A stretch of DNA of 64,000 nt from Arenibacter algicola (GTDB lineage: Bacteria; Bacteroidota; Bacteroidia; Flavobacteriales; Flavobacteriaceae), in assembly GCF_018860365.1 (NCBI RefSeq), contig NZ_JAHKPO010000001.1, forward strand, positions 310,001 to 374,000, written 5' to 3'. The translations under genes were made by a program, and so were the position numbers. The notes beneath the pieces are model-generated. The model had not been told where the DNA came from and made no database searches. It was given only the letters and a program-made list of their open reading frames with translations. Of the stretch, positions 10,126 to 43,697 are shown piece by piece; the first letter of the stretch is position 1; each line of letters begins with the position of its first letter.

Positions 10126-11448
10126 ATGCTTTGTAAACGGGATTACTTTTTATTAATATTTATAGTTTTTATAGCACTAATAGTTTTTTTTCCAACGTTT
10201 TTCAATAGTTTTCAAAATAATTGGGACGATGCCTGGATTTTACTTGAGAATCCTTTTGTTACTGATATTAGTCTAGAAAACCTTAACTATCATTTCACAC
10301 ATTTCTATACAGGACAATATTCCCCAGTAAATACTATGGTATATGCTATTGTTTATCGTTTATTTGGCTATAACGCAATGGCTTTTCATACTACATGCTT
10401 GATAATACATTGTATGAATTCCATAATGGTCTATTTGGTTTTCAAAAATTTGCTTAATGTTCTTAATCCAAAATTCACTAAAAAAAATATAAGGATATAT
10501 ACATTTATTGTAGCGTTGGTTTTTGCAATTCATCCCTTACAGGTGGAGTCCGTTGCTTGGATAAGTGCATCAAAGATCCTCTTGTATTCTTTTTTTGTTT
10601 TATTATCCATACACTGTTATATTCTTTATATAAAAACATCAAAAATTGGCTATTATATTGGTGTAATGGTGTTTTATGCCCTAGGATTTGGATCCAAGGA
10701 ACAAGCAATAATCCTACCGATAGTATTGTTTCTGTTCGATTATGCATACAACAGGTTTGAAGATTTAGGTTCGTTTCATGATTTATTGAACAAAAAAGTG
10801 ATCTTGGACAAAACACCTCTTTTTTTAATGGCTTTTTTCTTTTGGTATTTTTCTTCGGCAAACAACACAGGCCTGGTTACTATGGAGAATACATATCCTT
10901 TTTACCAACGATTATTCTTTGGGATGCATAGTATGTCCGAATACATTTTTCGCTCTATTGCCCCTGTTAAACTATACTACTACTATTTTTTCCCAATGAT
11001 AATAGGCAACCCTTTACCTTGGTATTATTGGGGCTATATGGTAATAACATTTATTGTTTTTGGTTTTATTTGGAAACAGTACAAAAAAAAGAACAAATTA
11101 GTACTCTTTGGGTTTTTATTTTTCATGGTAAACATTGTATTGGTATTGCACATTTTGCCTATGCCAAGACAAACTATTACCGCGGACAGGTATATGTATC
11201 TTGGTATTATTGGTTTGTCCATTATTTTGGTTTGGTTCCTAGATCATCTAAATAATAATTTCAAGAAAATCAAGAAAATTGTTCCATTTGTTGTTTCAGT
11301 CTATTTTCTAGGTTTGGGAGTTCATACTTTTATCAGGACCAAGGAATGGAAGAATAGCGAACTTATCAAGAGCAATGTCAAAGAGATTATAGATAAAAGA
11401 AAAATAGCAGGTAAATCCTTACTTGATAATCCTATAGCAGATGAATAA
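10126..11448 (+). CDS. GT-C membrane glycosyltransferase, TMTC-like
   Basis: This polytopic membrane protein (440 aa, about 10-11 hydrophobic segments) resembles the TMTC/PMT group, which moves sugars from polyprenyl phosphate to proteins or lipids outside the membrane. Typical signs are the early acidic motif NNWDDAW (about residue 31), QYSPVNTMVYAI, and the long signature HPLQVESVAWISASKILLYS, then GFGSKEQAI. TMTC proteins usually end in TPR repeats; this one stops after the membrane part. It overlaps the next gene, a polyprenyl-phosphate glycosyltransferase, by 8 bp. Acceptor unknown; the nearby secreted peptides and lipoproteins are candidates by position only. Confidence 0.75.
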   Translation: MLCKRDYFLLIFIVFIALIVFFPTFFNSFQNNWDDAWILLENPFVTDISLENLNYHFTHFYTGQYSPVNTMVYAIVYRLFGYNAMAFHTTCLIIHCMNSIMVYLVFKNLLNVLNPKFTKKNIRIYTFIVALVFAIHPLQVESVAWISASKILLYSFFVLLSIHCYILYIKTSKIGYYIGVMVFYALGFGSKEQAIILPIVLFLFDYAYNRFEDLGSFHDLLNKKVILDKTPLFLMAFFFWYFSSANNTGLVTMENTYPFYQRLFFGMHSMSEYIFRSIAPVKLYYYYFFPMIIGNPLPWYYWGYMVITFIVFGFIWKQYKKKNKLVLFGFLFFMVNIVLVLHILPMPRQTITADRYMYLGIIGLSIILVWFLDHLNNNFKKIKKIVPFVVSVYFLGLGVHTFIRTKEWKNSELIKSNVKEIIDKRKIAGKSLLDNPIADE

Positions 11449-12412
11449 TATTCTTTTATCCATAACAGTTCCCTGCTATAATGAAGAAAAAAACATAGCG
11501 ATACTTGTTGCCGAACTGGGTTTGGTATTAGAGGAATACGATTATGAAATTATATTGGTAAACGATGGAAGTACGGATCAGACTCAACAGGTTATCGAAT
11601 TTCTTGCCATTGAAAGCGATAAAGTAAAATTCATCTCCCTATCCCGAAATTTTGGACACCAAAAAGCTATAAAAGCTGGAATTGACCATGCCAAAGGTGA
11701 TTGTATAGTGACTATGGACGCCGATCTACAGCATCCACCACAAACCATTCCCGAGATGATAGCCTTATGGGAATTGGGAAACAAGGTTGTAACGGCGGTA
11801 AGGTCAGTACAAGGACAAGGTTCTTTTTTCAAGAAATATACTTCCAAACTGTTTTATTTGTTTTTGTCGAAAATATCGAATCAAGATGTAGTTGGAAATA
11901 GTTCCGATTTTCGGCTGTTCGATAAAAAAATAGTGGATATTCTACGAAAGATGCCAGAGCAGGACCTATACATTAGGGGGCTCGTTCCTTGGATTGGTTT
12001 TAAACAAACTACTATTAAGTTTAATGAAGGCAGAAGAGTCTATGGCAAGACCAAATATACCTTAAAAAAAATGCTATTGCTAGCAAGCAATGGAATAACC
12101 TCTAGTGGCATAAAGCCATTACGGTTTGCCCTATCTGCAGGTATATTGTTTGCCATGTTAGCGTTTGGATATGGCATCTATGCTGTAATAGCCACGTTCC
12201 TTGGCCTAACGGTTTCCGGTTGGTCTTCCATTATAGCCAGCATTATGTTTTTATCCGGTATACAGTTAATGGTATTAGGGGTTATGGGAGAATATTTGGG
12301 AAAAATGTATATGGCAAATAAACAAAGGCCCAACTATATCGTATCAAATACAAACATCTCTAAAAAAATAGAAAATGACAACCAACAAGAAAGGAGGGCT
12401 GCAATGTTTTAA
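11441..12412 (+). CDS. Polyprenyl-phosphate glycosyltransferase (GT2, DPM1/GtrB type)
   Basis: This 323-residue family 2 glycosyltransferase transfers a hexose from a nucleotide sugar to polyprenyl phosphate on the cytoplasmic face. Motifs are TVPCYNEEKNI, IILVNDGSTDQT, SLSRNFGHQKAI and MDADLQHPPQTIPEM with the catalytic DxD-like acid. Two C-terminal transmembrane segments (about residues 225-285) are typical of GtrB/DPM-like enzymes. Its 8-bp overlap with the GT-C gene suggests the two form one pathway: this enzyme makes the lipid-linked sugar and the GT-C protein uses it. Confidence 0.88.
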   Translation: MNNILLSITVPCYNEEKNIAILVAELGLVLEEYDYEIILVNDGSTDQTQQVIEFLAIESDKVKFISLSRNFGHQKAIKAGIDHAKGDCIVTMDADLQHPPQTIPEMIALWELGNKVVTAVRSVQGQGSFFKKYTSKLFYLFLSKISNQDVVGNSSDFRLFDKKIVDILRKMPEQDLYIRGLVPWIGFKQTTIKFNEGRRVYGKTKYTLKKMLLLASNGITSSGIKPLRFALSAGILFAMLAFGYGIYAVIATFLGLTVSGWSSIIASIMFLSGIQLMVLGVMGEYLGKMYMANKQRPNYIVSNTNISKKIENDNQQERRAAMF

Positions 12413-12572
12413 TCTGATTATGTGGACAGGAAATTCTTTTGTTTGCGGTTTAAAATTTTTATAAGGGAGCAAAAGGCGTGGAGAACTATATCAAGTTAAC
12501 ACGATAAAAAACACGACTTGATTAATAAAACTTACAAAGTCGTTACAAACATTAACTAATAACAATTAAATT

Positions 12573-12851
12573 ATGAAATCAAATTTTAGAAAAATTATCA
12601 ATCTAGCTGCAATACTTATATTCTTAGCTGCAATAGGGATAAATATAAAGGTAACACTTGATGACCCTTTTGAAATGGTAAATGAAAAGGCTTTAGCTCA
12701 AGAGACCACCGTAATTATTCCTTCATGCTCCTCAATGTGTTCATCTTTTGACGAAGTTATCTGTCATTATTATATTGAAGCCGCAAATGGAGACAGGATG
12801 CTTATAAGTTGTCCAGATTATTCCCCAAAAACTGCAGGAGGTACAGCTTAA
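12573..12851 (+). CDS. NVEALA-type secreted Cys-rich peptide A (92 aa)
   Basis: This small secreted peptide precursor resembles the Bacteroidetes NVEALA family. Residues 1-24 give a basic start and a hydrophobic segment. After a spacer comes NEKALA with an A-L-A cleavage site at 40-42, then a tail with Cys at 52, 56, 64 and 80. The four cysteines could form two disulfides. It heads a cassette with a beta-propeller lipoprotein, a CxxC lipoprotein and a signal peptidase. Unlike the three peptide genes at 32-41 kb it lacks the shared upstream leader. Function of the mature peptide is unknown. Confidence 0.75.
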   Translation: MKSNFRKIINLAAILIFLAAIGINIKVTLDDPFEMVNEKALAQETTVIIPSCSSMCSSFDEVICHYYIEAANGDRMLISCPDYSPKTAGGTA

Positions 12852-12864
12852 AAAATAATACATG

Positions 12865-12922: not shown

Positions 12923-13960
12923 ATGAAAACAATATTTATTTATTTTATAGCAATACTCTTTTTTAGTTGCAATAAAACCAGTAACGTAGTTCGTGAAAAT
13001 GCAGAAATAAAATTTAGTGACGACGATTTTAAATTAAGTAGAAAAATCTATGGGGAATTTGTTCAAAAAGTTAATGACTCACTTTTGAACCCGGGAACTC
13101 CATACATAATTGGAGATTATTTAATACTCAGAAAAAAAAAGTCTGAAAAGCTATTTAGTGTTATACGTATTACAGATGAAGAGTACTTAGGAGACTACAT
13201 GAATACAGGCAGAGGGCCTGGAGAAGGATTATATGCTTGGAGATATTTCACATCTGAAGAAGGTAATTTAGGAGTGTACGATGTTAAGTTGAAAAAAATT
13301 GTAGAGTTTAATTTGGATTCCTTATTGATGAAAAATGAATTCTTGAAAGAATATCAATTACCTTCATATGTGCTTTCTAGTGATGGGGTTTTCAAGAGTC
13401 GAAATAAGATTTATTTCAATAATATTTATGGAAATACTAGCCATTTTCTATACTCAGCTGACTTAGACGGGAATAATTTGAAAGGGTATGGGAAATTGCC
13501 AATGTTGGATAACCGCTTCTTGAATTTAAAATTGAATTTAGTGGATGTTTTTAACGTTAACATGGATAATTACAACCAGATAGCTGCATTTTCATATTCT
13601 AAGATTCCTTTGTTGAAGGTATTTAACCTGGAGAATAAAAAATTAATTGACATAGCTGGTCCTGCGAATTACATCCCTAATGCCAAAGACTTAAGTTTTA
13701 GGTCAAAGCAATTTTATAAAACTATTCAAGTAACTGAAAAATATATTTATGCATTATATAGTGGCCAAGATTGGATTGCTGACAGTCCGCTAACACAAAA
13801 TGCCTACACTCTTTATTGTTTTTCTCATCAAGGGCAACTTATTGAAAAATTACAGATTGACAAAGGAATTTATACTTTTAGTGTTTATAAAGACTCCATA
13901 ATATATGGTCTTGGCAAAGATATAGAGGGGACAAGTAAACTAATAAAATTTGAATTTTGA
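12923..13960 (+). CDS. 6-bladed beta-propeller lipoprotein (BF3164-like)
   Basis: A lipoprotein signal, MKTIFIYFIAILFFSC, sets the start at ATG 12923. The rest is beta-rich and carries the motif NTGRGPGEGL seen in BF3164/6-bladed-propeller lipoproteins of Bacteroidetes. Expected site is the periplasm or outer-membrane surface. These proteins often accompany NVEALA peptides; their role is not established. The gene follows peptide A and overlaps the next gene (stop TGA inside TTGA), so it is translationally coupled to the CxxC lipoprotein. I infer peptide binding or sensing, without direct evidence. Confidence 0.72.
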   Translation: MKTIFIYFIAILFFSCNKTSNVVRENAEIKFSDDDFKLSRKIYGEFVQKVNDSLLNPGTPYIIGDYLILRKKKSEKLFSVIRITDEEYLGDYMNTGRGPGEGLYAWRYFTSEEGNLGVYDVKLKKIVEFNLDSLLMKNEFLKEYQLPSYVLSSDGVFKSRNKIYFNNIYGNTSHFLYSADLDGNNLKGYGKLPMLDNRFLNLKLNLVDVFNVNMDNYNQIAAFSYSKIPLLKVFNLENKKLIDIAGPANYIPNAKDLSFRSKQFYKTIQVTEKYIYALYSGQDWIADSPLTQNAYTLYCFSHQGQLIEKLQIDKGIYTFSVYKDSIIYGLGKDIEGTSKLIKFEF

Positions 13961-14499
13961 ACAAAAGTAGAATTTTACCAATTGTAATAATCATTAATTT
14001 GTTATTTGCTGGATGTGTCAAATACTCAAAACAAAATAAAGATTCGCCCTTAACAAAAATTAATGAAAAATGGATGGATGAACAACTAGTTTTACCTTTA
14101 TCCCTCGAGAGATTGAAAGATAGTTTACCAATCAAAAATGTTAAACCCTATACTATTATTGCTTTTTATAACGGCAATTGCAGTGCCTGTTATCTTGAAT
14201 TACACAAATGGAAAAAAGTAATTCCACAACTCTCGAAAGTGAATCAAGTAGAATTTAAATTTATACTGACTGGGCCTAGCAAACCTTTTCTTCAATATAA
14301 TTTGGAAGAAATAGACTTTTCAATTGATTTCGTTTTTTATGACAAAAATGATGAATTTATCAATCATTATAATTATATGAACTCCGCGGGCTATTTATTT
14401 TCATCCTTGCTTGTAAATCGTGACAATGATATATTATCAATTGGCAACCCAACCATTTCAAATGATGATTTGATACGTTTTATTAAATTAATGGAATAA
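13957..14499 (+). CDS. Thioredoxin-like CxxC lipoprotein (cassette A)
   Basis: This 180-residue protein has a lipoprotein signal with Cys20 (LLFAGC) and a thioredoxin-fold segment, TIIAFYNGNCSACYLELHKW, with C75-S-A-C78. It should face the periplasm and exchange disulfides. Start is TTG at 13957, overlapping the upstream stop by 4 bases; no ATG is available nearby. Its position after a four-Cys peptide suggests that it oxidises, isomerises or reduces that peptide, which is inference. Confidence 0.68.
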   Translation: MNKSRILPIVIIINLLFAGCVKYSKQNKDSPLTKINEKWMDEQLVLPLSLERLKDSLPIKNVKPYTIIAFYNGNCSACYLELHKWKKVIPQLSKVNQVEFKFILTGPSKPFLQYNLEEIDFSIDFVFYDKNDEFINHYNYMNSAGYLFSSLLVNRDNDILSIGNPTISNDDLIRFIKLME

Positions 14500-14524: not shown

Positions 14525-15733
14525 TTGGCTAATTCACCTAATATTTTGCAAATACTTTTATATATATCTTTAAGCATTTGCTTTTTACTACTACTTCTAT
14601 TAGCCATTTACTTTTTACTGAATAATATATATTGGTTAACGGTAATATGCCTCTTTACATTAATTTTCCCAATATTAATTCATCCCAAATTACGATTTAT
14701 TTGCAATACTGAAATGCGTCAAAATGTTTGGTTATATTCTATTTCTATGTTGTTTATTGTTTTATTATTGGCCATTGGCACAAGGCTTTTTTTAGTGGAA
14801 ATTTATAACATCCCTAGTAATTCAATGAAAGAGAGCCTAGTTAATGGAGATATAATCTTATTAAGCAAATTACATTATGGTCCAAAATTACCCGATTCCC
14901 CTTTTAAAATTCCATGGGTGAATTTTTTTGTCTATATGAATGATGATGCTCGAAAGGCAATAGATTCAACTTGGTGGCCTTATAATAGATTGAAGGGACT
15001 TACGCAAGTAAAAAAAAATGACGTAGTTATCTTCAATCATCCTGAGGATAGCAAATATTCCTACGTAAAACGATGTATAGGCCTACCTGGAGAAAATATT
15101 AAAATCAAAAAAGGCGAAATATACGTTAACAACTCAAAATATAATGATTTTGTTGAAATCAGATATTCTTATAAAGTATGGCACAAAAACACTACCAATT
15201 CAACAACACCTTTAAAAGCAATAAAGCTGATTGAAAATACAATCAATAACAATAAGCAGGATACTTTGTTATTAACACATCAACAATATAAATTACTTAA
15301 AAAATCTGACTTAATAGATTCAATAAAATTATTAGATTATCCAATTAAGATTAGCAATAATTTTTCCAAAAATAAAGATTCAATTATAATGTCAACGAAT
15401 TTTTGGGGCCCTTTCCAAGTACCTCAAAAGGGAAAATCCATAAAACTTACTACTGAAAATTATATTTTATACGAAAAAATATTAAATGTATTTGAAGGTA
15501 AATATTTACAAAAAAAGGATAACAGATTTTATATTGATGGTGTAAATTCTGATAACTATAGGTATAAACAAAACTATTATTTCATGATGGGCGACAATCG
15601 CCATAATTCAGTGGATTCACGATATTGGGGTTTTGTTCCCGAACAAAATATTATCGGAAAAGCAATTTTTGTGCTATTTTCTAGTAAGAAAGGTCGAATT
15701 AATTGGAATCGGTTTATGAAAATCATAGAATGA
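14525..15733 (+). CDS. Signal peptidase I paralog, enlarged (402 aa)
   Basis: Signal peptidase I (S26 family) cleaves AxA sites on the outer face of the inner membrane. Two or three N-terminal membrane segments precede the catalytic Ser100 in IPSNSM and Lys182 in [11 protein letters not shown]. The C-terminal box [19 protein letters not shown] is intact. At about 400 residues it has a large insertion (about 190-340), like other Flavobacteriaceae SPases. It starts at TTG 14525 shortly after the CxxC lipoprotein. Because it sits in a peptide cassette I infer that it processes these peptides, alone or with its paralog at 22-23 kb. Confidence 0.9.
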
Positions 15734-15778: not shown

Positions 15779-16525
15779 ATGTTTGAGAGTTTACCAAAAA
15801 TTAGAACAAGATTACCCTTGGCTTATGAAAAAATTTACGATGAACATTATCAGAATAACAGAGAAGGTAATGGCAAAACAACATCTATTTCAAAAAAAAT
15901 GGAAAGTTGGATGCATAAAATTGTGGCCAAAGACGTAGTATTAGGATGTATTGATGGAATCAAAACATTGGAAATAGGGGCTGGAAACTTGAATCATTTA
16001 AAATACGAACCAAATGGAAATAGCTATGATGTTGTGGAACCTTATTCAGAATTGCTAAACTCCTCATGTAAAAAAAACAAGATAGGTACTACATACACTG
16101 ATATTAGCCAAATTAGTAATAAAAAATATGATCGAATTATATCCATAGCCTGCTTTGAGCATGTCTTAAATCTTCCTCTTTTAGTTGCCCATTCTTGTAA
16201 ATTATTAAATACAAATGGTCAATTGAGAGTCGCCATTCCTAATGAAGGTACCTTTTTGTGGAAATTAGGAACCATGGTTACAGGATTCGAATTTAAAAGG
16301 AAATATGGTTTAGATTATGAAATCCTAATGAAACATGAACATGTAAATACTGCGGATGAAATAGATGCAATTTTGAATTTCTTCTTTAAAGATGTAAAAT
16401 GTAAAGTTTTCGGCATAAACAAAAAAATTGCCTTTTATAGATTTTACATATGTAAAACCCCAAATACTAAAAATGTTAAGTACTATTTTTCAACAAAAAC
16501 AAATAGTACTTCCAACTCTAATTAA
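15779..16525 (+). CDS. Class I SAM-dependent methyltransferase
   Basis: This 248-residue cytosolic protein has the Rossmann SAM-binding motif KTLEIGAGNLNHL, then the acidic loop DVVEPYSELL, the middle motif RIISIACFEHVLNLPLL and LRVAIPNEGTFLWKLG. It fits the methyltransferase 11/12/23 groups, which modify sugars, lipids and small molecules. It follows the signal peptidase by 45 bases in the same operon direction and is the last gene of cassette A. The substrate cannot be predicted. Confidence 0.8.
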   Translation: MFESLPKIRTRLPLAYEKIYDEHYQNNREGNGKTTSISKKMESWMHKIVAKDVVLGCIDGIKTLEIGAGNLNHLKYEPNGNSYDVVEPYSELLNSSCKKNKIGTTYTDISQISNKKYDRIISIACFEHVLNLPLLVAHSCKLLNTNGQLRVAIPNEGTFLWKLGTMVTGFEFKRKYGLDYEILMKHEHVNTADEIDAILNFFFKDVKCKVFGINKKIAFYRFYICKTPNTKNVKYYFSTKTNSTSNSN

Positions 16526-16599: not shown

Positions 16600-18546
16600 T
16601 TAATACCATATCTGCTCACCGTTCCTATACTCAAAGATCCTTTCTTGACGGCCCTCATCTAAGCACTTTAAGTATAATAAGGCATTTTTGGGGACATTTT
16701 TGTACTTCAATTCATAACCTTCCGCTTTTTGTTTGCCCAAGGAAACAAAAACACCCTTGTCTACATAAAATAACTCATAGTTGAGCCCCTTTAATACATG
16801 ATTAAGATTATTTGGAGGGGCGAATCTGATTTTTGAAACATTTTGTTTAATCCCCAGATCTATTCCTTTCCAAGTCGATGGATTATTTTTTGTGGACGAA
16901 CTGTTCATTATAAAACTGCCCTTTAACTGTGTTTCCTTTTTTCCTGAACCGTCATCACCAAATAAATCTATCTCTTTTATAGTAATAGAATTTTTGGAAA
17001 AAATCCGAAAATATCTATATTCTTTATCAAGATTTAGTGGAATCTCATATGGCCTTAGCTCAGGATCAAAATCTATTTTTAACAGAGTTACGGCGTCTTT
17101 AAAGTCTTCTCTATTGGCTGCCTGTACCAATGCCCCCTTAATAAGTTTGGCATCTTTTTCCAAGCCATTTTTGGCCCAGTACTTACGTGTTATTGTAATT
17201 TCATGTGTATTTTCATCAGGAATAAATTTTGTCATTTCTCCATTATGATCCAAATGAAAAGGATTACCAAACGGGATGACAGTACCATTTTTATATAGTA
17301 CAGTTTGGTATACTATATCTGTTCCCATTTTCTTAAAGATCAAGGGTCCATCTTCAATTCTCCCCCACTGCACGGGAACCCATTGTTTGTTGACCCCAAG
17401 TACAGAGAGGTAAGCATAATATGTGTTTTCGGGTATTTTACCAGCAATATCGACGGAAACATCTACTGCGTTGAAATATTCGTCTGAAACATCCTTTTGC
17501 TTCACATTTTTGAACAACAATGGTATATTTTCCATTTTAACTCTTTTATCGGAAAGCGGACCTGTTAAATGTGTTGAAAAAGTGTGTCTATAAATTTTTG
17601 GTAATCTCACGTTGCCTGACCAATCATCATCAAAACGATTACTATTGATGGTATCGTTGTAAAACCAGCTATGGTCCTTTTCCCAATAGGATTCAAAATA
17701 AAGTGTCTTTCCCCCATATAAAAGAGCATTCCATTGATGGTCATCTTCCCTGTGACCCCAGGCAGGAACAAAATCAGCTACCATTGGTACTCCTTCTGTA
17801 TTAACTATATATGTGTTAAACCAGCTTTTTACAGTACACTTGCCACTTTTCATCTTCATAAAGTCCTTAAACTTTAAAATGGGCAAACCTTCTGTCAACT
17901 CATAATTGAACACATACTCCTTATATTGTCCAAATAAGGAATCGCAGGCTTTGGTAAATGGAATTGGATATGAGTTCTCTAAATGATACTTGTTCTCCCT
18001 TTTAAAGAACCCCCGCCAATCCTCAATAGCCTTTCCCTGAATAAGTCTATACGGTAAAACATACTCACAAAAATGTTCGAAAGGAACACTATCATGTGCA
18101 TATGGGTTCCTTTGCCATGAGTCAAAAGCTTCATCAATATTCTTAATAAGAAATTCACCGGTAACAAACTTAATATCTTCCAGTACAGGTCTGGAATAAA
18201 CACTGGCCGAAGGTGAATACCTTGTCTTAAGGTTATCCCATAATTTATTTAACCTATCGGAATCAATAACTCCATTTTGTTCCAATTGTGATTCTGCTAT
18301 ATTAGGGATATCCCTAAATTTCTTAAGATAAGTAGTATCATAGGAATAGTTATAGGGAAGATTGGAAATAAGGAATTCCGCCGCCGCCATTTTCAGAGAG
18401 TCACCCTTTTTTTCATAATGCTCAAGAACCTGGATCAGTTCAACTTTGTTTCCTTCCGCCATATCCAGTGCTTGCCTTATTTCAGGACTATATTTATGAC
18501 ATGAAAAAACACAAAGAACAATGATTGGTAACACAATTTTTTTCAT
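16600..18546 (-). CDS. Transglutaminase-like lipoprotein (648 aa)
   Basis: A lipoprotein signal ends at FSC (Cys16). The central region has a transglutaminase/cysteine-peptidase-like core: Cys237 in KSGKCTVKSWFN, His270 in DDHQWNALLYGGK and an acidic residue near 285. The C-terminal half is beta-rich and ends in a segment like a discoidin or carbohydrate-binding domain. Such proteins in Bacteroidetes are poorly characterised; possible roles are peptide cleavage or cross-linking in the periplasm. It starts 4 bases after the RND pump stop, so the two are one operon. It converges on the methyltransferase gene of cassette A. Confidence 0.65.
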   Translation of the reverse strand: MKKIVLPIIVLCVFSCHKYSPEIRQALDMAEGNKVELIQVLEHYEKKGDSLKMAAAEFLISNLPYNYSYDTTYLKKFRDIPNIAESQLEQNGVIDSDRLNKLWDNLKTRYSPSASVYSRPVLEDIKFVTGEFLIKNIDEAFDSWQRNPYAHDSVPFEHFCEYVLPYRLIQGKAIEDWRGFFKRENKYHLENSYPIPFTKACDSLFGQYKEYVFNYELTEGLPILKFKDFMKMKSGKCTVKSWFNTYIVNTEGVPMVADFVPAWGHREDDHQWNALLYGGKTLYFESYWEKDHSWFYNDTINSNRFDDDWSGNVRLPKIYRHTFSTHLTGPLSDKRVKMENIPLLFKNVKQKDVSDEYFNAVDVSVDIAGKIPENTYYAYLSVLGVNKQWVPVQWGRIEDGPLIFKKMGTDIVYQTVLYKNGTVIPFGNPFHLDHNGEMTKFIPDENTHEITITRKYWAKNGLEKDAKLIKGALVQAANREDFKDAVTLLKIDFDPELRPYEIPLNLDKEYRYFRIFSKNSITIKEIDLFGDDGSGKKETQLKGSFIMNSSSTKNNPSTWKGIDLGIKQNVSKIRFAPPNNLNHVLKGLNYELFYVDKGVFVSLGKQKAEGYELKYKNVPKNALLYLKCLDEGRQERIFEYRNGEQIWY

Positions 18547-32249: not shown

Positions 32250-32259
32250 AAATCCCAAT

Positions 32260-33305: not shown

Positions 33306-33533
33306 TTATGGGTCACACTCGCCACCATTAGGAGAATAATAGCAGGTGTACGTGCCTGATGTCGACATATAGCACCTTCCCAAAGTACCTGCTCTACATT
33401 CGGCATTTGCACTACTCATATTTAACAACGAATCTAAGTTCAACGTATTCGAACCAATATTAATTGTTGAGTAAGACAATAACAAAGCTGCCAGAGCAGC
33501 GACTCCAAAAACTATAATTACTTTTTTCATCAT
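33306..33533 (-). CDS. NVEALA-type secreted Cys-rich peptide C (75 aa)
   Basis: The layout matches peptide B: hydrophobic N-terminus, spacer NTLNLDSLLNMS, A42-N-A44 then Glu45, and Cys at 46, 54, 64 and 73. The spacing of the first three cysteines (7 and 9 residues between) is identical to peptide B. It follows the O-antigen-ligase/TPR gene on the same strand with the shared leader between them, and has no propeller or CxxC gene directly behind it. Confidence 0.75.
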   Translation of the reverse strand: MMKKVIIVFGVAALAALLLSYSTINIGSNTLNLDSLLNMSSANAECRAGTLGRCYMSTSGTYTCYYSPNGGECDP

Positions 33534-33588
33534 ATTACATTTAAAATATTACAGAAGAACTAGGCTTCTAATTATTAATACATTTACT

Positions 33589-33705
33589 TGCTAAGGTTCT
33601 TTTGGGGAGGCAACACCTTTACCATATGCCATGCCCTTTCATGATCATTAGACGGGCAATGTTAAAAAAATCCCCCTTTGTATCTTTATATCTTCATAGG
33701 CATAA
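33589..33705 (-). promoter_or_regulatory. Conserved structured 5-prime leader, copy C
   Basis: Same elements as copy B: TGCCTATGAA, AAAGGGGG, GGCATGGCAT, then a hairpin with AAGGT/ACCTT around a loop holding TTGCCTCCCC. The stem has an A-A mismatch but can extend through T-G and G-C pairs. It lies between the ligase stop and peptide C. Confidence 0.65.
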
Positions 33706-35701: not shown

Positions 35702-35748
35702 TTCCTACAAACATAATAAAATATTCCCAATATTGGGAATATTTTATT
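35702..35748 (-). promoter_or_regulatory. Palindromic operator with -7 box, copy 2
   Basis: A perfect 34-bp palindrome (35715-35748) centred on TTCCCAATATTGGGAA is followed on the minus strand by TATGTTTG (35708-35715), the Bacteroidetes -7 box, about 85 bp before the ligase start. A repressor bound here would overlap the -33 region. Confidence 0.75.
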
Positions 35749-36119: not shown

Positions 36120-38420
36120 CTAGTTCTTGCTTACAAAAAATTCAAAATCGTGGTGTCCCAATAGCCCTTCTCCACCCACACCTTCAATAATTCCAATGAA
36201 TTGGGTATTGAGGTCAGAACAGAAAAAAGTGACCGTAGCCTCCCCCTTTTCGTCGGTTACAATGGATGGGGCCCAAAGCAAGGTGTTGCGATAGTCTGGA
36301 AGAGGATCTTTAATCGTTTCCTTGTCATAAACAGGACTATAGAACTCTTTCTTTCCATAGAATCCCTGAACCTTGGTAAGATTGTTTTTCCTCAATAGTT
36401 CTTCTTCGGTAAATATAGGGTACTCGTATTTCTGAGTTATCCTCCCCCTAATTGTATATTCAGTTTTATTCGAATTCCATTGAAATCCAACATAGGACTG
36501 ATATACCTTACCCTCGACCGGTTTTTGATTGTCGGGATCCCTAACATGTATTTCACAATTTAAAATACCGCTTATACAAACATAATCCGTATTGATGTCC
36601 AACTTGGCCAAACTATCCAATTGTCCCAGATATTTATCCCTAAATACACTCTTCTTCCGAGCACTTACCTTTACCTCTTCCAAGGTTATAGTACCCTGTT
36701 CCTGCCAAGGAGTTGTTAGAGAATCAAATTGAGGGATACTATCTTTATTTTCAAATATCGGATATGGCTTTACTTTACCAGTCAGGGCAATTTTAATTTT
36801 ATCAAAAGTATTGCCCAGATCAACCCTATATTCATCGTTATCTATAGGGAAGTGTTTTAGGAACAATCTTCTTCCCATGGTGAAGGAAGATTCATCTAAT
36901 TTGAATGTTCCATTATCATCCAATTCAAGTATTTGGCTGGTATTGTTGTCAGGGTTGAATAACACCATGGTACGTTGGGGGCGATGATCTTTTCCTATTT
37001 TTAGTTGGCGAAGTGTACCTGTTTCGACTGGAAGTACTACATTTTTTGCCTCAGCCCGTTTTTGAATGGATTCATCGTCCCAAGTATATTTTCGCCATCC
37101 TTGGGTCAACATCAATAAATCCAATGCATCAGAACGATCCTTGTTGGATTTGTCAAAATAATAATCAGGATTATGGATATTGCCTTTTAACTGGGTTGAC
37201 AAATAATAATGAGTCAGAATGTTCTTTTTTCCCAGCCTCTCATAAATTTTATCAAATACACTAAGAGACAACTGAGCCGGCACTGAATTATTGTCACTGT
37301 CCGTGGTCTTTATCTTCAACTTTACCATTTTTCTGGTGGCATATAACTTCTCCAGCCCAGTGACAATAATATTCATTCCTTTGTCTAAATTGACATAAAC
37401 AAGTCTTTCTACGAGAGGCCTCAGTTCATTGTCAAACAAAGTTGCCTCAACTATACCCTGTGGAATCTGTTTTAAGGGAATTTTAATTAGTAGGCTGTCC
37501 TTGAGCATCCCTGATGCGATAAATTGGACCATTCCCCTTGTCTGTATCCGTAAATAAATTTTTTGCTCGAGAGATATAGGCGTTTTGGCAACATTAAAAA
37601 CCAATTCATTCTCAGTTTGTGCTTCAAGATAAAACCGAATACCTTGCTTTTTAGGATTTGGTAAAATGTAAACGGTATCAGGCTGATTTTCTAATCCAAT
37701 CGTATACTTTTGATTCACCTGCGGCACGAAACTTAATTTTCCCATTCCATCGTGAATACTTTCAAATGGTAAAAGCGTTTTACCACTTTCATAAAGTGTT
37801 CCTTTTATTTTGACAGGATAACCATTCGGTGAAACAGCCTTAAAAGCAATTGTGTTCCTCAATCCCTCAATTAATTGGCCACCTTCAGGAAAGACATTGA
37901 ACTGAGTGCGTATGTTTGATTGATTATCATTTTTTGGAAAGGCCTTTCCAGTAGCATCTCCAATATGGGAAATAATATGAATTTTACGCCGATCATAAAA
38001 AGGCTGGCCATTGTCATAAATGGAATGTGCCGAATAAGCAGACAGCCAATATTCTCCCTTTGGCCATGAATTCTCAATATAAACGTGTCCGCTCGTGGTC
38101 CCATTTTCTATTTTATATTTTTCCTGAAAAACAATACTATCATTGGACGCTTTGGTTAATGTAATATAAAGAGTTTTATCCAAGGTGCTAATTTGATGTG
38201 CCTGACTATCAAGTACCCAAGACTTGAACCAAAAATCCTCATCATGCTCATATATATCTTTATTAGTCTGTAGGTAAATTGAATTGGTTTTGGCCATAGA
38301 AGCCAGTTTATTTATGGAAAGAGCCAATTTGCTCATCAAAGAATCCTCCTGCTGACCATACGTTTGTTGTTCAGCAAAAATTAATGCACCTAACATTAAT
38401 AACAGTCTATAATAAATCAT
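36120..38420 (-). CDS. Alpha-2-macroglobulin-like (MG domain) secreted protein
   Basis: This 766-residue protein has a signal peptide (FAEQQTYGQ). The N-terminal MG2-like domain is YLQTNKDIYEHDEDFWFKSWV, and repeats of beta domains follow (KPLVERLVYVNLDKGM, KMVKLKIKTTDSDNNSVPAQLSLSVFD). The C-terminus has TLLWAPSIVTDEKGEATVTFF, like the end of macroglobulin-type and carboxypeptidase-regulatory proteins of Bacteroidetes. No thioester CxEQ motif is seen, so it is not a classic protease trap. It probably works at the cell envelope. It stands downstream of cassette D on the same strand. Confidence 0.7.
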   Translation of the reverse strand: MIYYRLLLMLGALIFAEQQTYGQQEDSLMSKLALSINKLASMAKTNSIYLQTNKDIYEHDEDFWFKSWVLDSQAHQISTLDKTLYITLTKASNDSIVFQEKYKIENGTTSGHVYIENSWPKGEYWLSAYSAHSIYDNGQPFYDRRKIHIISHIGDATGKAFPKNDNQSNIRTQFNVFPEGGQLIEGLRNTIAFKAVSPNGYPVKIKGTLYESGKTLLPFESIHDGMGKLSFVPQVNQKYTIGLENQPDTVYILPNPKKQGIRFYLEAQTENELVFNVAKTPISLEQKIYLRIQTRGMVQFIASGMLKDSLLIKIPLKQIPQGIVEATLFDNELRPLVERLVYVNLDKGMNIIVTGLEKLYATRKMVKLKIKTTDSDNNSVPAQLSLSVFDKIYERLGKKNILTHYYLSTQLKGNIHNPDYYFDKSNKDRSDALDLLMLTQGWRKYTWDDESIQKRAEAKNVVLPVETGTLRQLKIGKDHRPQRTMVLFNPDNNTSQILELDDNGTFKLDESSFTMGRRLFLKHFPIDNDEYRVDLGNTFDKIKIALTGKVKPYPIFENKDSIPQFDSLTTPWQEQGTITLEEVKVSARKKSVFRDKYLGQLDSLAKLDINTDYVCISGILNCEIHVRDPDNQKPVEGKVYQSYVGFQWNSNKTEYTIRGRITQKYEYPIFTEEELLRKNNLTKVQGFYGKKEFYSPVYDKETIKDPLPDYRNTLLWAPSIVTDEKGEATVTFFCSDLNTQFIGIIEGVGGEGLLGHHDFEFFVSKN

Positions 38421-38943: not shown

Positions 38944-39423
38944 TTATAGCCCTTTAGTTTCTACAAAACTTTTAAGTTTTTCAAATGCAAAAGGATTATC
39001 AGGAGTTGAAAATTCTATACTAACTATTCTTTTATTTTTTACTTCCAGTATGCAGGGATAAATACTATTATTTGTCGGAACGACAAATTTGCCTTGTTTA
39101 TCATAATGAATGTTGGGATAATCCTTTAAGTGCTTATTAATTTTTCGCTGCAATATCTTTAACGACTCAATTTTTGTAAGTACAAAAAGTACCTCCTTAT
39201 TCTCAAGATATTCTCCCATAAAAAATTCAGCCTCTTCAATACAACCAGTACATCCAAGTCCAGGCAAAATAACTACCCAATCATAAGAAGTTTTATCATT
39301 AATATGAGATATAGCTTCACTTAAAAAATCTTGTTCAATTTTATTATTTTTTTCATGACAGGAGGCCAGAACAAAGAAAATTGCCCCAAATAAAACAATC
39401 ATTTTTTTAAATTTCAATTTCAT
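38944..39423 (-). CDS. Thioredoxin-like CxxC lipoprotein (cassette D)
   Basis: This 159-residue protein has lipid Cys22 (LASC) and the redox motif WVVILPGLGCTGCIEEAEFF with C58 and C61, then VLFVLTKIESLKILQ. It is nearly collinear with the cassette B protein at 30582, so the two arose by duplication. It lies 11 bases after the propeller gene. Predicted role: thiol-disulfide exchange in the periplasm, possibly on peptide D. Confidence 0.7.
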   Translation of the reverse strand: MKLKFKKMIVLFGAIFFVLASCHEKNNKIEQDFLSEAISHINDKTSYDWVVILPGLGCTGCIEEAEFFMGEYLENKEVLFVLTKIESLKILQRKINKHLKDYPNIHYDKQGKFVVPTNNSIYPCILEVKNKRIVSIEFSTPDNPFAFEKLKSFVETKGL

Positions 39424-39434: not shown

Positions 39435-40631
39435 TTACTTAATTACTTTTGGTTCAAATATTTTAAACGTCATATACACTTCTTCAATATCACCTTCATC
39501 CAGATATTCAATGTTTAGACCTTCCTCGGTCACGAAACTATTATCCCAATTCCATTCATAGCTATTCCCTATCACAGTTTCTCCTAAATAACCAAAATTC
39601 TTATCCATCACTATAATGGCTATTGGCTTATCCTTAATCTTTGTGTGTACTGTTGCGTCTGGAACAGCTTTACGTAAAAATCGATAATAGACCTCCCTAT
39701 ATTTATCATATAACAAAGCTGAATATAAATCTTGATCAATTACATGTCGTATTGACTCTTGTCTAGGAATCGATTTAGGATTCCCCTTTAGTGGCCGAAT
39801 TGTACCAGCAAAATTACTTCCACCATATACCTCCTTATAAGTTTCATCGCCTAAAGCTTGAATATAAAGATTATGAGACACTGGAAAGCTATAAATCATT
39901 CTATTTTGATCAATATCCAATTGTGGATATACTTTGGTAAATATTGGGTCGCCCCAAGTAAAATTAGAACCATATAATTTACTCGGATATAAACCATTAT
40001 GCTCGATCTTACCTGTTTCATATTCTATTTGAGCCATAAACTTTATCTTGTCTAATAAAGGATCAGGTATAATTCCTATATAAAATCCGGGAAGCAATAA
40101 AGTAGTTTCCATTTCAATGAAGGGCGTTGACGTTTCAGGAAAATATTGACAATTATTTACTAATACTTCAGGAAATTCCTTAAAATCCTTATCTCCTATC
40201 AGTGAGTATTTATTTAAAATTTCGGATTTGTTATTAGCTAAGATTAGTTCCATAGTTTGATAGTCTGCTATATATATGGAATCCATACTTTTTATGTGAT
40301 ATCCCGTTGGATAAGGAACTGCATTGGGACCGTGCTTTTCGAATTTTAGTATATTCTCATACTCAGAGCTTTCATAATCATAAATATAAATGGCATTATC
40401 AAAGCTGTTTATAAAAGTAAATTTTCTTCTACCTGTGGAGTCTATAAAAATTTCTAAGTACTGGGGTTTAGGGGCAGTATTTGAATCTAAAGGAAATTTT
40501 TTTACACTTGTTACAAACAATTCCATGGAACTATTTAAACTTCCCTTCTTAGGGTTTTTTATTTCAGGCAGATTAGACGTACATGAAAGAACCGTTGAAA
40601 GTATTAATATTGAGTATATTGTTTTCGCCAT
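39435..40631 (-). CDS. DUF4221-like propeller lipoprotein (cassette D)
   Basis: A lipoprotein signal ends at TVLSC (Cys16). The 398-residue body matches its paralog at 31031 in pattern: PLDSNTAPKPQYLEIFIDST, FDNAIYIYDYESSEYENIL and a late ALLYDKYREVYYRFL (ILFDEFNKVYYRLT in the paralog). It is beta-rich, probably a propeller, and located at the envelope. It follows peptide D after an attenuator-like hairpin and precedes a CxxC lipoprotein, reproducing the cassette order. Confidence 0.7.
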   Translation of the reverse strand: MAKTIYSILILSTVLSCTSNLPEIKNPKKGSLNSSMELFVTSVKKFPLDSNTAPKPQYLEIFIDSTGRRKFTFINSFDNAIYIYDYESSEYENILKFEKHGPNAVPYPTGYHIKSMDSIYIADYQTMELILANNKSEILNKYSLIGDKDFKEFPEVLVNNCQYFPETSTPFIEMETTLLLPGFYIGIIPDPLLDKIKFMAQIEYETGKIEHNGLYPSKLYGSNFTWGDPIFTKVYPQLDIDQNRMIYSFPVSHNLYIQALGDETYKEVYGGSNFAGTIRPLKGNPKSIPRQESIRHVIDQDLYSALLYDKYREVYYRFLRKAVPDATVHTKIKDKPIAIIVMDKNFGYLGETVIGNSYEWNWDNSFVTEEGLNIEYLDEGDIEEVYMTFKIFEPKVIK

Positions 40632-40706: not shown

Positions 40707-40931
40707 CTATAGGTGGCATTCCCTTGCCGATGTATCATATCTGCACCGATCTGAAATAGTACACACTGCATTAGCCGAACTGGCTTGCGATTCAGGGCAT
40801 GCTTCTGCAGGATTAATACTTAACAAAGAATTTAAGTCTAGATTGCTACTTAGTGCACCAACAGTATTGCTACTCATGAACATACCAATAGATAGTGCCA
40901 TAACTCCTATAATTCCAATTATTTTTTTCAT
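40707..40931 (-). CDS. NVEALA-type secreted Cys-rich peptide D (74 aa)
   Basis: The start is ATG 40931 (MKKIIGIIGVMALS); a longer frame to 41063 would translate the leader. Spacer SNLDLNSLLSIN, then A42-E-A44 followed directly by Cys45, with further Cys at 57, 63 and 72. Cleavage at AEA would leave an N-terminal cysteine on a 30-residue peptide. It carries the shared leader upstream and a propeller/CxxC pair downstream. Confidence 0.75.
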   Translation of the reverse strand: MKKIIGIIGVMALSIGMFMSSNTVGALSSNLDLNSLLSINPAEACPESQASSANAVCTISDRCRYDTSARECHL

Positions 40932-40987: not shown

Positions 40988-41100
40988 AGGTGCAAAGGTC
41001 TTTAGGGAGGCACCACCTTTGCAAAAATACCATGCCTTTTACACTTAATAATTGGCATCGCAAAAAACATCCCTTAATCTCCTTGTATTTACATAGGCAT
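40988..41100 (-). promoter_or_regulatory. Conserved structured 5-prime leader, copy D
   Basis: Elements as in copies B and C: TGCCTATGTAA, GGCATGGTATTT, and a perfect 8-bp stem GCAAAGGT/ACCTTTGC around a 15-nt loop with TGCCTCCC. The basal pair is G-C here and A-T in copy B, a compensatory change. Confidence 0.72.
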
Positions 41101-41489: not shown

Positions 41490-41536
41490 TTCCTACAAAC
41501 ATAATAAAATATTCCCAATATTGGGAAGTTTTATTA
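41490..41536 (-). promoter_or_regulatory. Palindromic operator with -7 box, copy 3
   Basis: This differs from copy 2 at one palindrome position (41503-41536, centre TTCCCAATATTGGGAA). TATGTTTG lies at 41496-41503 on the minus strand. It points toward leader D and peptide D. Confidence 0.7.
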
Positions 41537-41688: not shown

Positions 41689-42966
41689 ATGCCAGTACTA
41701 CACAATATTAATTTTGATAAAGCCAGTTTTAAAGATTTTGAAAAAATTCCCAACCTAAACTCTTTTCAAAGGACGGAGGCCTTCAAAGAATTTACCGATT
41801 ATATGGAAACCCACGGCCATATGAATTATCGTTTTGTAACCCATAACGGTTGTGGCCCTGAAATTTTGGTAAGCTCTCCATTTCAGGAAAAGCCCCAAAG
41901 CTGTATAAGCCTTGTTTCCAATGACTACTTAAATTTTACTCAACATCCAAAAGTCAAAGCTGCTGCTATTGAAGGTATTCAAAAATATGGAACTGGAGCC
42001 GGGGCATCGCCATTGATCGGAGGGCATCATGATTACCATGTTATGTTGGAAGACAAACTATCCTCTTTTTTTGGTAGAGCTAAGAGTTCTTCTATAATCT
42101 ACACTACAGGCTATACCGCAAACAGTGCTACATTGCTGGCAATGTTAAAAAACAACGATTGTGCCATTGTGGATATGGCCGTACATGCTAGTGTGTTTGA
42201 AGGGTTATTGGAAACAAATGTTAAAAGATTTCCCCATAACAATCTTGATTATTTAGAAAGGGCCTTATCCGACACCCGGTCAAAATATGTAACACGGTTG
42301 GTTATCATAGACGGCGTTTATTCTCAAGACGGAGATCTTGCCAAGATGAGTGAAATCTATGACCTTACCAAGCTATATGGGGCCTTCCTTATGGTCGATG
42401 ATGCACACGGTATTGGAGTATTAGGAAAAAATGGCAGGGGCGCCATTGAAATGTTCGACCTTCTGGACAAAATTGACATTATTTCCGGTACTTTAAGTAA
42501 AGCATTGGGACATATAGGAGGGTTTGTCGTTTCCAAACCTGAAGTTATCAATTATCTACAATTTCAATCCCGCCAACAAGTTTTTTCCTCAACCTCGACT
42601 CCCGCAACCAATGGGCTACTCGTTGCACTTAATTTAATTGATGAAGAACCCGAGTGGCGCAATCAACTTGCAAAAAACGTAGCTTATTTTAAAAAAGGAT
42701 TACTAGATATTGGGTTGGACATAGGTCCAACGGAATCACCAATAATCCCCATAAAAATTGGAGATGCACATAAAACTGGAGATGCTGCCCGATTGTTGCT
42801 TAAGGCAGGTGTGTACGCCAATGCCATTGTTTATCCTGGGGTTTCCCGTAAAGATGCCAGAATCCGTACTAGTTTAATGGCTACACATACCAAAGAGCAT
42901 CTAGACAAGGCCTTAAATGCGTTTGACTATGTTAACCAAAAATTAAATATTTCTCTAGTCCATTAA
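41689..42966 (+). CDS. Alpha-oxoamine synthase (PLP-dependent, KBL/SPT/BioF family)
   Basis: These enzymes condense an amino acid with an acyl thioester and lose CO2. The 425-residue protein has the family motifs LVSNDYLNFTQHP, GTGAGASPLIGGHHDYHVMLE, the Asp-His pair MVDDAHGIGVLG and the PLP lysine near residue 271 in SGTLSKALGHIGGF. The N-terminal extension of about 60 residues is as in serine palmitoyltransferase-like rather than BioF enzymes. It could make a sphingolipid, sulfonolipid or alpha-aminoketone. It is followed by a TetR gene in the same direction and sits in the palindrome regulon. Confidence 0.85.
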   Translation: MPVLHNINFDKASFKDFEKIPNLNSFQRTEAFKEFTDYMETHGHMNYRFVTHNGCGPEILVSSPFQEKPQSCISLVSNDYLNFTQHPKVKAAAIEGIQKYGTGAGASPLIGGHHDYHVMLEDKLSSFFGRAKSSSIIYTTGYTANSATLLAMLKNNDCAIVDMAVHASVFEGLLETNVKRFPHNNLDYLERALSDTRSKYVTRLVIIDGVYSQDGDLAKMSEIYDLTKLYGAFLMVDDAHGIGVLGKNGRGAIEMFDLLDKIDIISGTLSKALGHIGGFVVSKPEVINYLQFQSRQQVFSSTSTPATNGLLVALNLIDEEPEWRNQLAKNVAYFKKGLLDIGLDIGPTESPIIPIKIGDAHKTGDAARLLLKAGVYANAIVYPGVSRKDARIRTSLMATHTKEHLDKALNAFDYVNQKLNISLVH

Positions 42967-43039
42967 CATTTTTTAACTGGATATTAATATCTAAATTCAG
43001 GCTCCATTTTGCAGCACTTCACAAAAAGTTCTATTTTTA

Positions 43040-43056
43040 TTCCCAATATTGAAAAT
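43040..43056 (+). promoter_or_regulatory. Half-conserved operator before the TetR gene
   Basis: ATTCCCAATATTG followed by AAAA keeps one full half-site and the centre of the shared palindrome, 9 bp before the ATG, where bound protein would block the gene itself. Confidence 0.5.
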
Positions 43057-43064
43057 GGCATTCT

Positions 43065-43697
43065 ATGGGGAGGAAAATATACCAAGGAAAAATCAATAAT
43101 AAGGAACGTTCAAAACAGAAACTAATAAATGCTGTTGGCAAGATTCTCAAAGTCAAAGGTTACACTGGCTTGACCGCAACGAATATTGCAAAAGCTGCCG
43201 GCTTAAGCCGACGGCTTATTACTATGTATTTTGATTCAGTGGACGATTTGATTGAAACCTATGTTAGGGATAGGGATTTTTGGTCTACCGCTGCTTCAAA
43301 AACCGATGAGATGATTGCAATTACTGAGGGTAGGGATACCAAAGAAATAATTAATTATTTATTGCAGAATCAAATTGATAATTTTTACAATAATCCTGAA
43401 ATGCAAAAACTCATTTTATGGGAAATCAGTACAAAATCAAAAATTATGTACGAGGTTTGTCAAGAAAGGGAACATTTAGGCACCAAAGTATTTGAACTGA
43501 CAGATAAAGAACTGAACAACAAAGACATAGATGTAAGAGCCGTAACTGCTCTTTTAGTGGCTGGAATTTATTATATGGTACTTCACTCCCAATCAACGGA
43601 CACTACATTCTGTGAAATTGACATTGATGAACCAGAAGGTATGAAAAGGATTAAAAATGCAGTTAGTTTAATCCTGGATAAAACTTATAATAATTAA
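43065..43697 (+). CDS. TetR/AcrR-family transcriptional regulator
   Basis: This 210-residue regulator has an N-terminal TetR helix-turn-helix: LINAVGKILKVKGYTGLTAT and IAKAAGLSRRLITMYFDSVD (about residues 20-65), then a helical ligand-binding domain. Proteins of this group bind palindromes of 15-20 bp as dimers and are commonly autoregulated. Five related palindromes lie within 10 kb, one of them just before this gene. The link between this protein and those sites is inference, based on position and site size. Confidence 0.88.
   Translation: MGRKIYQGKINNKERSKQKLINAVGKILKVKGYTGLTATNIAKAAGLSRRLITMYFDSVDDLIETYVRDRDFWSTAASKTDEMIAITEGRDTKEIINYLLQNQIDNFYNNPEMQKLILWEISTKSKIMYEVCQEREHLGTKVFELTDKELNNKDIDVRAVTALLVAGIYYMVLHSQSTDTTFCEIDIDEPEGMKRIKNAVSLILDKTYNN

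Follow-up and report, generated by a model that had tools for sequence, protein, structure and literature searches.

We asked whether the small peptide genes, signal peptidases, pump proteins and lipoproteins crowded into one region of the Arenibacter algicola genome (G000; 5.75 Mb) work as a single system. The region lies in a 64,000-nt stretch analyzed here as a whole (G000:C28:310001-374000; hereafter the window). An initial annotation had proposed a mobile cluster for Cys-rich secreted peptides, and every part that it named was found as an open reading frame (ORF) where it had been placed. Comparison with other genomes shows that the gene set is a genuine system, conserved and partly modular, and that one class of its peptide genes (type B, below) carries a new RNA element. 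The cluster is likely a production line dedicated to small Cys-rich secreted peptides and carried as cargo of an integrative element.

Positions 10126–40931 hold two units, each with its own signal peptidase. The left unit, on the plus strand, runs in the order PMT_2-like glycosyltransferase, GT2 glycosyltransferase, peptide A, TolB_like propeller, CxxC lipoprotein, signal peptidase SP1 and methyltransferase. The right unit, on the minus strand, opens with peptide D, a DUF4221 propeller, a CxxC lipoprotein, an MG2-like protein, a Wzy_C/TPR protein and peptides C and B, and continues with a second DUF4221 propeller, a CxxC lipoprotein, a DUF5128 propeller, the RND adaptor, permease RND2, a TolC-type protein, signal peptidase SP2, permease RND1 and a transglutaminase-like lipoprotein (TGlp). 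Beyond position 40931 lie an oxoamine-synthase-like gene and tetR, followed by transfer genes. The precursors, their lipoprotein neighbors, the peptidases and the pump are as follows (a slash marks the predicted cut).

12573..12851, plus strand: peptide A precursor; leader type A, ...NEKALA/Q; relatives in L042 and L043
12887..13960, plus strand: TolB_like propeller lipoprotein beside peptide A (PF15869), 35 bp downstream of it
32260..32490, minus strand: peptide B precursor; leader type B, ...NTADA/EC
31031..32272, minus strand: DUF4221 propeller lipoprotein beside peptide B (PF13970)
33306..33533, minus strand: peptide C precursor; leader type B, ...SSANA/EC
40707..40931, minus strand: peptide D precursor; leader type B, ...NPAEA/C; the mechanical ORF begins at 41063 and the likely start is an internal ATG
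39435..40631, minus strand: DUF4221 propeller lipoprotein beside peptide D (PF13970)
29456..30631, minus strand: 6-bladed propeller lipoprotein (DUF5128; PF17170)
13957..14499, plus strand: CxxC lipoprotein 1, recognized from its sequence
30582..31034, minus strand: CxxC lipoprotein 2
38944..39423, minus strand: CxxC lipoprotein 3, thioredoxin-like fold
14525..15733, plus strand: SP1, accessory signal peptidase I (PF10502; accessory clade)
21971..23200, minus strand: SP2, accessory signal peptidase I (PF10502; accessory clade), between TolC and RND1
18551..21694, minus strand: RND1 permease, second subunit (PF00873; relay residues)
24667..27732, minus strand: RND2 permease (PF00873; relay residues)
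23172..24773, minus strand: TolC-type outer membrane protein (PF02321), its real start probably inside
27795..28925, minus strand: RND periplasmic adaptor (PF13437, PF16576; over the TIGR01730 cut-off)

The predicted propeller/CxxC cassettes thus comprise four propellers (TolB_like, DUF5128 and two DUF4221) and three CxxC lipoproteins, the two signal peptidase I paralogs are two Peptidase_S26 ORFs, and the two predicted RND pumps are two permease ORFs with one HlyD-type adaptor and one OEP/TolC protein. A PDB sequence profile search with the CxxC family returned nothing useful; the fold model was more informative.

The precursors had been called NVEALA-type, a name that holds for leader anatomy and gene company and not for profile, because none of the four matches Pfam NVEALA (PF14055). 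In a PF14055 search of the whole genome, the best E-value was 0.75 and no match fell on the four peptide genes; Pfam and NCBIfam scans of the window peptides gave chance-level matches only. Like Bacteroidales NVEALA peptides, the window precursors have an N-terminal hydrophobic helix, a long spacer, an A-x-A motif and a short Cys-containing mature part, and their spacers of 19, 24, 25 and 26 residues follow the NVEALA leader plan. We picked 37 precursors from cluster loci by eye and with phmmer, including 12 of the 13 NVEALA matches (one in L172 was missed). A script, which halted one motif early in four NVEALA rows, placed 18–26 residues between helix and A-x-A in 32 of the 37; the exceptions are one spacer of 12 (doubtful start), two of 8 (G163, G254) and two precursors with no called site.

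A propeller comes next on the same strand after 33 of the 37 peptide genes, against a background of 52 of 336 ORFs (≥150 residues) in the same loci. The four without one are peptide C, which has no ORF of ≥150 residues within 1 kb downstream, the genes of G163 and G254, and one NVEALA gene with an intervening gene. Seven further peptides (the one in L172 and six from the RNA search below) have a propeller next in five cases, the two misses being tandem peptides of G163 whose downstream lipoprotein was unrecognized. The pairing is not always one to one, because two tandem peptides in G379 and three in G163 share a single downstream lipoprotein; in G163 (L147, 14749-15545) the three tandem genes belong to one sequence family. 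We also noted a peptide–propeller cassette that splits an RND2 start fragment from the RND2 remainder in Flavivirga aquimarina (L043, 13775-21119). An apparent Shine–Dalgarno site with a minigene before peptide A proved to be the coding end of the GT2 gene.

The initial annotation had proposed testing whether peptides, signal peptidases and pumps co-occur elsewhere, and would have counted a lack of co-occurrence as a refutation; instead, they turned out to be linked both in other Flavobacteriaceae genera and in Bacteroidales. An alignment of four accessory peptidases, scanned against species genomes, had at least 515 confirmed relatives, and the best 80 were retained. Eight of these best 80 loci are of the cluster type (Arenibacter, two Flavivirga, two Flavobacterium, Maribacter, Algibacter and one Bacteroidales metagenome-assembled genome [MAG]); among named relatives, Arenibacter amylolyticus (L042) is the nearest that has the cluster. 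A phmmer search of the eight with window proteins found RND2 in all 8, the adaptor and TolC in 7 each, a peptide and a propeller in 6 each, and RND1 and a CxxC protein in 5 each; several of these loci are truncated by the 10 kb flank or by the end of a contig. The remaining 72 of the best 80 loci, some on short contigs, showed none of the cluster parts, and some had GT2-like genes.

Among 397 genomes of the family, RND1 (E ≤ 1e-100) was found in 17, representing 16 of 237 genera, and an accessory peptidase in 13. The limit for the latter, 350 bits, was set after seeing the gap to housekeeping enzymes (≤263 bits; frames >500 residues), and two fragments at 267–273 bits came from genomes already counted. 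RND1 was present in nine of the 13 accessory-peptidase genomes and in eight of the 384 others (p = 2.6e-11, own genome included, with profiles built from the clusters and genome kinship uncorrected). Of the 10 genomes with the strongest RND1 matches, nine also have an accessory peptidase; in the remaining one, G254, the cluster includes a divergent peptidase. The eight weaker RND1 matches (850–1070 bits) make up a looser group of their own, in which some have the pump, propellers and a short peptidase. G019 has an accessory peptidase without RND1 and keeps DUF1573-like and TGlp genes. A profile of the type B leader matched nine of 393 genomes and left 384 of 393 unmatched; eight of the nine have an accessory peptidase, and all eight contributed sequences to the profile.

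The same association was seen with the Pfam NVEALA family. In a class-level sample of 295 genomes, NVEALA was found in three, all with RND1, and RND1 in 11 (p = 3.9e-5). In 81 genomes from the family of G497, 11 had NVEALA, 21 had RND1 (E ≤ 1e-80) and 10 had both (p = 1.8e-6), that is, RND1 in 10 of 11 NVEALA genomes versus 11 of 70 others; the two samples overlap in G497 and G620. Because the neighborhoods of G497, G530 (split across two contigs) and G620 hold RND1, RND2, adaptor, TolC, propellers, CxxC proteins, signal peptidase, TGlp and Wzy_C/TPR, with a propeller next door to the peptide as in the window, we regard the window cluster as the flavobacterial counterpart of the NVEALA cluster. 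The two differ in that the window peptides fail the PF14055 profile, the Bacteroidales peptidases are shorter (289–296 aa) and form a separate clade, and our RNA leader model has no match at the NVEALA loci searched. In the literature searched, which left most subscription journals outside coverage, the term NVEALA was not found, nor were the Pfam/DUF names of the propeller partners in any bacterial paper. In Bacteroides thetaiotaomicron, BT0662, BT0664, BT0667 and BT0669 bear the annotations O-antigen ligase, 6-bladed propeller, LepB and RND adaptor, respectively (PMC10434189), which suggests, at the level of annotation, that a laboratory strain of this species carries the cluster.

The accessory peptidases stand apart from housekeeping enzymes. 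SP1 exceeds the TIGR02227 cut-off (NCBIfam), and Ser100 and Lys182, which we take to be the Ser/Lys dyad of signal peptidase I, are invariant in all 10 accessory peptidases aligned. A tree was built from 29 cluster sequences and 30 housekeeping ones (20 from the 72 housekeeping loci and 10 others), 59 in all. In it, 25 cluster peptidases fall on one side of a 99/100 branch, apart from the sampled housekeeping ones; the tree program flagged long branches in G254, G620, G672 and G019, and 50% of bootstrap trees need one change only. SP1 groups with the peptidases of L042 and L043 (97/87), both loci of leader type A, and leader type B loci carry SP2-like peptidases; the window carries both kinds. 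The pattern is suggestive of a pairing of SP1 with type A leaders and SP2 with type B. Elsewhere in the genome (G000:C19:498443-499114) we noted a signal-peptidase-like stretch with one in-frame stop, of the same length in G002, G007, G014 and G017; five of the 18 searched genomes of the genus have it in similar form.

A peptidase gene lies directly upstream of RND1 in 10 of the 13 strong-RND1 clusters that show both (by eye; the exceptions are L042, L145 and L148). Alignment to solved pumps showed that the positions of AcrB Asp408 and Lys940 are altered in both permeases. In TM4, D-N is found in 25 of the 26 RND1 rows and D-S in the remaining row, and all 25 RND2 rows have D-N or D-S. In TM10, all 24 readable RND2 rows read N-D-[SA]-I-L-K and all 24 readable RND1 rows read V-N-[SA]; RND1 lacks an acid or Lys at that point and often has an acid about eight residues further. 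Neither permease has the TM4 Asp-Asp plus TM10 Lys relay of AcrB/HAE1-type drug pumps. From these residues we infer that RND1 and RND2 may form an obligate pair with one main proton path. MdtABC-type pumps are heteromers of two unlike permeases. The window pump resembles them in having two permeases, one adaptor and one outer membrane protein, and the best solved match of RND2 is MdtB; it differs in that, at the AcrB TM10 K-N position, RND2 has N-D and RND1 has N-S or N-A, and in adjoining a peptidase and peptides.

Shared control had also been proposed, and it gains support at two levels: an RNA leader at three of the four peptide genes, and a palindrome at the Wzy_C/TPR, oxoamine-synthase-like and tetR genes.

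32533..32645, minus strand: RNA leader of peptide B, conserved (covariance model)
33588..33702, minus strand: RNA leader of peptide C, conserved (covariance model)
40990..41099, minus strand: RNA leader of peptide D, conserved (covariance model)
35723..35740, unstranded: palindrome, candidate TetR operator before the Wzy_C/TPR gene, one of three window matches
41511..41528, unstranded: candidate TetR operator before the oxoamine-synthase-like gene, one mismatch
43039..43056, unstranded: half-conserved candidate operator before tetR, two mismatches
41689..42966, plus strand: alpha-oxoamine synthase family enzyme (BioF/Kbl/SPT/CqsA superfamily; PF00155)
43065..43697, plus strand: TetR-family regulator (PF00440)

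The regions upstream of peptides B, C and D are alike, and ∼120 nt are common to all 17 type B genes then listed. On these 17 sequences, the 3' part of the leader was drawn as a stem whose loop pairs with a downstream stretch (H-type pseudoknot). The structure paired 93.1% of cells versus 87.4 in shuffled alignments (reached by 0 of 500); slid versions paired 38%–59%, a comparison that favors the drawn structure because it was drawn on the same sequences. Both sides had changed in seven of 13 pairs (6 of 500 shuffles reach seven), the covariation score was 0.359 versus 0.243 shuffled (0 of 500 reach it), and further pair types numbered 16 versus 14.3 (58 of 500). Since these double changes fall mostly in the stem (five of the seven pairs and 16 of the 19 cells), with two of the seven pairs of the loop-to-tail helix changed in three cells, the pseudoknot is less sure than the stem; the type B leader probably forms it. 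RNAalifold, run on eight of the 17 leaders, preferred an alternative helix that would compete with the drawn stem, and found a covarying upstream hairpin.

A covariance model built without the pseudoknot and searched over the window and 97 of 234 loci (1.89 Mb) gave 23 matches: the 17 training sequences, one duplicate locus and five new leaders. Four of the new ones (L146, L147, L046, L190) lie 34–158 nt before a peptide-like ORF; the L190 ORF has an uncertain start, and its frame as called lacks a helix. After the fifth (L144) come only fragments. Within its own genome the model matched only the three window leaders, and it had no match at the type A and NVEALA loci searched. At gathering scores, Rfam returned only the tRNA in the window and nothing in eight cluster loci; a lax Rfam search with a single leader yielded nothing beyond a CRISPR repeat at chance level. 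A Bacteroidetes promoter motif had no full match upstream of twelve genes. Upstream of the NVEALA genes in L172, L174, L175 and L176, several regions share AGAAGGAGG or AGAAAGGAGG stretches (by eye), and that of L172 includes a long hairpin-like stretch; these are perhaps another leader type.

The palindrome ATTCCCAATATTGGGAAT has three matches in the window at ≤3 mismatches, a number reached by none of 100 shuffles, and may be the operator of the window TetR. As an exact 24-mer it occurs in 0 of the 234 loci, so this control seems local. The oxoamine-synthase-like enzyme scores below every listed NCBIfam cut-off and resembles BioF, Kbl and SPT, and less so CqsA; that it and the TetR form a signal synthase/regulator pair is a guess. 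An N-acyl-cyclolysine circuit reportedly controls operons for secreted products. The window's oxoamine-synthase-like and TetR genes, which share palindromes, offer a tentative parallel. The circuit is a Bacteroidota signaling system (Linares-Otoya et al. 2025, as mentioned in PMC13419125). Two further stretches resemble oxoamine synthases: the start of an ORF with an Acetyltransf_6 domain (window 62413-63981) matches the C-terminal part of oxoamine synthases, and L006 (1-812) opens with an oxoamine-synthase-looking frame (by eye).

The initial annotation held the cluster to be probably mobile, lying between an integrase at a tRNA and a transfer operon. Insertion into a tRNA gene can now be seen against an empty site.

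8248..8336, minus strand: left integration junction, 3' part of tRNA-Val(UAC) and downstream flank, 96.6% over 89 nt to G014 (L234)
8511..9767, plus strand: tyrosine-type integrase (PF00589, PF13102)
45458..56076, unstranded: conjugation region with TraG P-loop ATPase, TraM, DUF4138, coupling ATPase and DUF5712 (Pfam)

G002 and G015 are collinear with window positions 263-8130 at 88%–89%. G014 has an uninterrupted tRNA-Val(UAC), with the left flank on one side and a folC-like gene on the other, so its site is empty; the end of contig C14 in G000 carries the folC-like side together with an intact tRNA. Because of the flank collinearity, the empty site and the C14 side, we place the insertion at tRNA-Val(UAC), with the integrase at 8511. 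The predicted tRNA site was therefore borne out, but with another tRNA: tRNA-Val(UAC), whose 3' part closes the left flank at ∼8336, and not tRNA-Val(GAC) at 3526, which flank collinearity and the G014 empty site rule out. An integrase at a tRNA with an empty site in a relative, together with transfer genes, points to a putative integrative and conjugative element. From 8336 to the contig end there are 82 kb and the opposite flank is on another contig; the inserted stretch (one or several elements) probably extends beyond the window. In a second genome, G254, TraG and TraM lie ∼9 kb from a peptide gene. The region of G002 and G015 is an integration hotspot: L231 and L233 (8–20 kb) hold other genes and a window-related integrase, ∼11 kb on, in the same region. 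Inside the window's transfer region (52033-53170) we noted an AbiEii-type toxin gene with a small adjoining ORF.

The remaining cluster parts are as follows.

10126..11448, plus strand: PMT_2-like membrane glycosyltransferase (Pfam match below cut-off); a relative precedes the pepA-type peptide in L043 (7e-153)
11441..12412, plus strand: GT2 glycosyltransferase (PF00535; NCBIfam matches below cut-offs)
15779..16525, plus strand: methyltransferase (PF13489)
16600..18546, minus strand: TGlp, transglutaminase-like lipoprotein (family matches)
33722..35623, minus strand: Wzy_C (O-antigen-ligase-type) and TPR membrane protein (PF04932, TPR; family alignment)
36120..38420, minus strand: MG2-like envelope protein (weak PF01835), with relatives in L046, L142 and L190

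These rows include the O-antigen-ligase/TPR protein and the glycosyltransferases (GT2 and PMT_2-like) that had been predicted. The transglutaminase-like label comes from its relatives: the window member has no Pfam match, and eight of the 11 family members match Transglut_core (best 3.7e-5). F5/8C domains are likewise matched by eight of the 11; Cys237 is invariant in the family, and His270 and Asp298 are ≥90% conserved. In L046 (13935-21109), four consecutive MG2-like reading frames follow a DUF4221–CxxC cassette.

That these parts form one pathway gains strong comparative support from linkage and co-occurrence, and the cluster probably matures and exports small Cys-rich peptides. The gene set, its linkage, the peptidase clade, the catalytic residues, the peptide–propeller order and the conservation and covariation of the RNA are observed directly; from them we infer each biochemical step and the direction of transport. 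The Sec machinery would insert a precursor through its N-terminal hydrophobic helix. The mature part would then be tethered in the periplasm by the spacer (18–26 residues in most precursors), where thioredoxin-like CxxC lipoproteins would aid disulfide formation and the PMT_2-like or Wzy_C/TPR enzyme would perhaps add a glycan. An accessory signal peptidase would cut after A-x-A (SP1 acting on type A leaders, SP2 on type B), and the peptide, or part of the load, would exit through a pump made from two dissimilar RND subunits with a single adaptor and a single TolC. Each peptide's private partner would be its neighboring lipoprotein propeller, most likely for immunity or capture, and the structured RNA leader would set production of type B peptides. 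A bacteriocin-like function for the peptides is a real possibility that falls short of probable; a role as surface factors or something else is possible and more doubtful, and a role as signals is rather unlikely.

Several observations weigh against this production line. One NVEALA genome (G758) is without RND1, and 11 RND1 genomes are without NVEALA matches. G205, G359 and G050 keep peptidase, Wzy_C/TPR, propeller and CxxC proteins without RND1 (a peptide accompanies them in G359 and G050, and in G205 a peptide-like ORF whose start is uncertain), so the pump is not part of every system. Some of the weaker RND1 genes have little else recognized nearby, and no peptide was recognized beside the machinery of G184/L049 and of the Bacteroidales MAG L045. 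In the peptidase tree, the four Bacteroidales cluster peptidases form their own clade (100/100) among the remaining sequences, and the SP2 side is weakly supported (85/63), which keeps the leader–peptidase match only suggestive. The spacers of G163 and G254 are 8 residues, yet the G163 peptidase groups with SP2, which counts against a strict spacer–peptidase match. The three genomes without RND1, and the matches of RND2 to general multidrug RND families (below curated cut-offs), also fit another account, in which the RND proteins are ordinary multidrug or envelope efflux and the peptides, propellers and peptidases are a separate system sharing the neighborhood. We find this improbable: RND1 is patchy and tied to the accessory peptidase and NVEALA, the peptidase directly precedes it in 10 of 13 clusters, and the same union of genes recurs in Bacteroidales. 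A chance neighbor, as the leading explanation of the pump, is ruled out by the co-occurrence data.

Two narrower accounts keep the pathway and assign the peptides a role. In one, the peptides are bacteriocin-like toxins, the propeller lipoprotein is the cognate immunity protein, and the rest matures and exports the toxin. Variable mature parts beside a lipoprotein (33 of 37), several peptide–propeller cassettes per cluster, patchy spread (17 of 397 genomes in 16 of 237 genera) and carriage on an integrative element all agree with it. Most immunity proteins are smaller than these propellers (∼350–430 residues), however, peptide C has no ORF of ≥150 residues within 1 kb downstream, and tandem peptides share one lipoprotein (two in G379, three in G163). 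We hold this account to be unlikely. Class II bacteriocin and microcin clusters have an ABC exporter with a peptidase domain; the window cluster resembles them in its small precursors, dedicated protease, dedicated exporter and adjacent partner gene, and differs in that a signal peptidase I paralog and an RND pump replace that exporter. In the other account, the peptides act as signals between cells or as glycopeptides at the surface. The Wzy_C/TPR or PMT_2-like enzyme would glycosylate them, the propellers and the F5/8C-containing TGlp would keep them at the surface, and the oxoamine-synthase/TetR circuit would switch them on. Wzy_C/TPR, TGlp and F5/8C domains do recur across clusters, and palindromes precede Wzy_C/TPR, the oxoamine synthase and tetR; a phmmer search of the other clusters turned up relatives of neither the oxoamine synthase nor tetR, which makes this control seem local, and we hold this account, with its additions taken jointly, to be less likely still.

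Returning to the production line, we tentatively propose, at slightly less than even weight, a Bacteroidota secretion pathway in which Sec-delivered, tethered peptides are oxidized, cut by their own peptidase clade and expelled by a two-subunit RND pump, with a propeller per cassette and a pseudoknot RNA gating type B, the same line being the gut NVEALA system. Such a pathway was not described in the literature searched. The type B RNA leader is a new element, without an Rfam match in the searches made (window and eight cluster loci). If the pathway is true, peptide exit through an RND pump would widen the known cargo range of these pumps, and orphan genes of gut and marine Bacteroidota would become one testable pathway of protease, redox, export and regulation.

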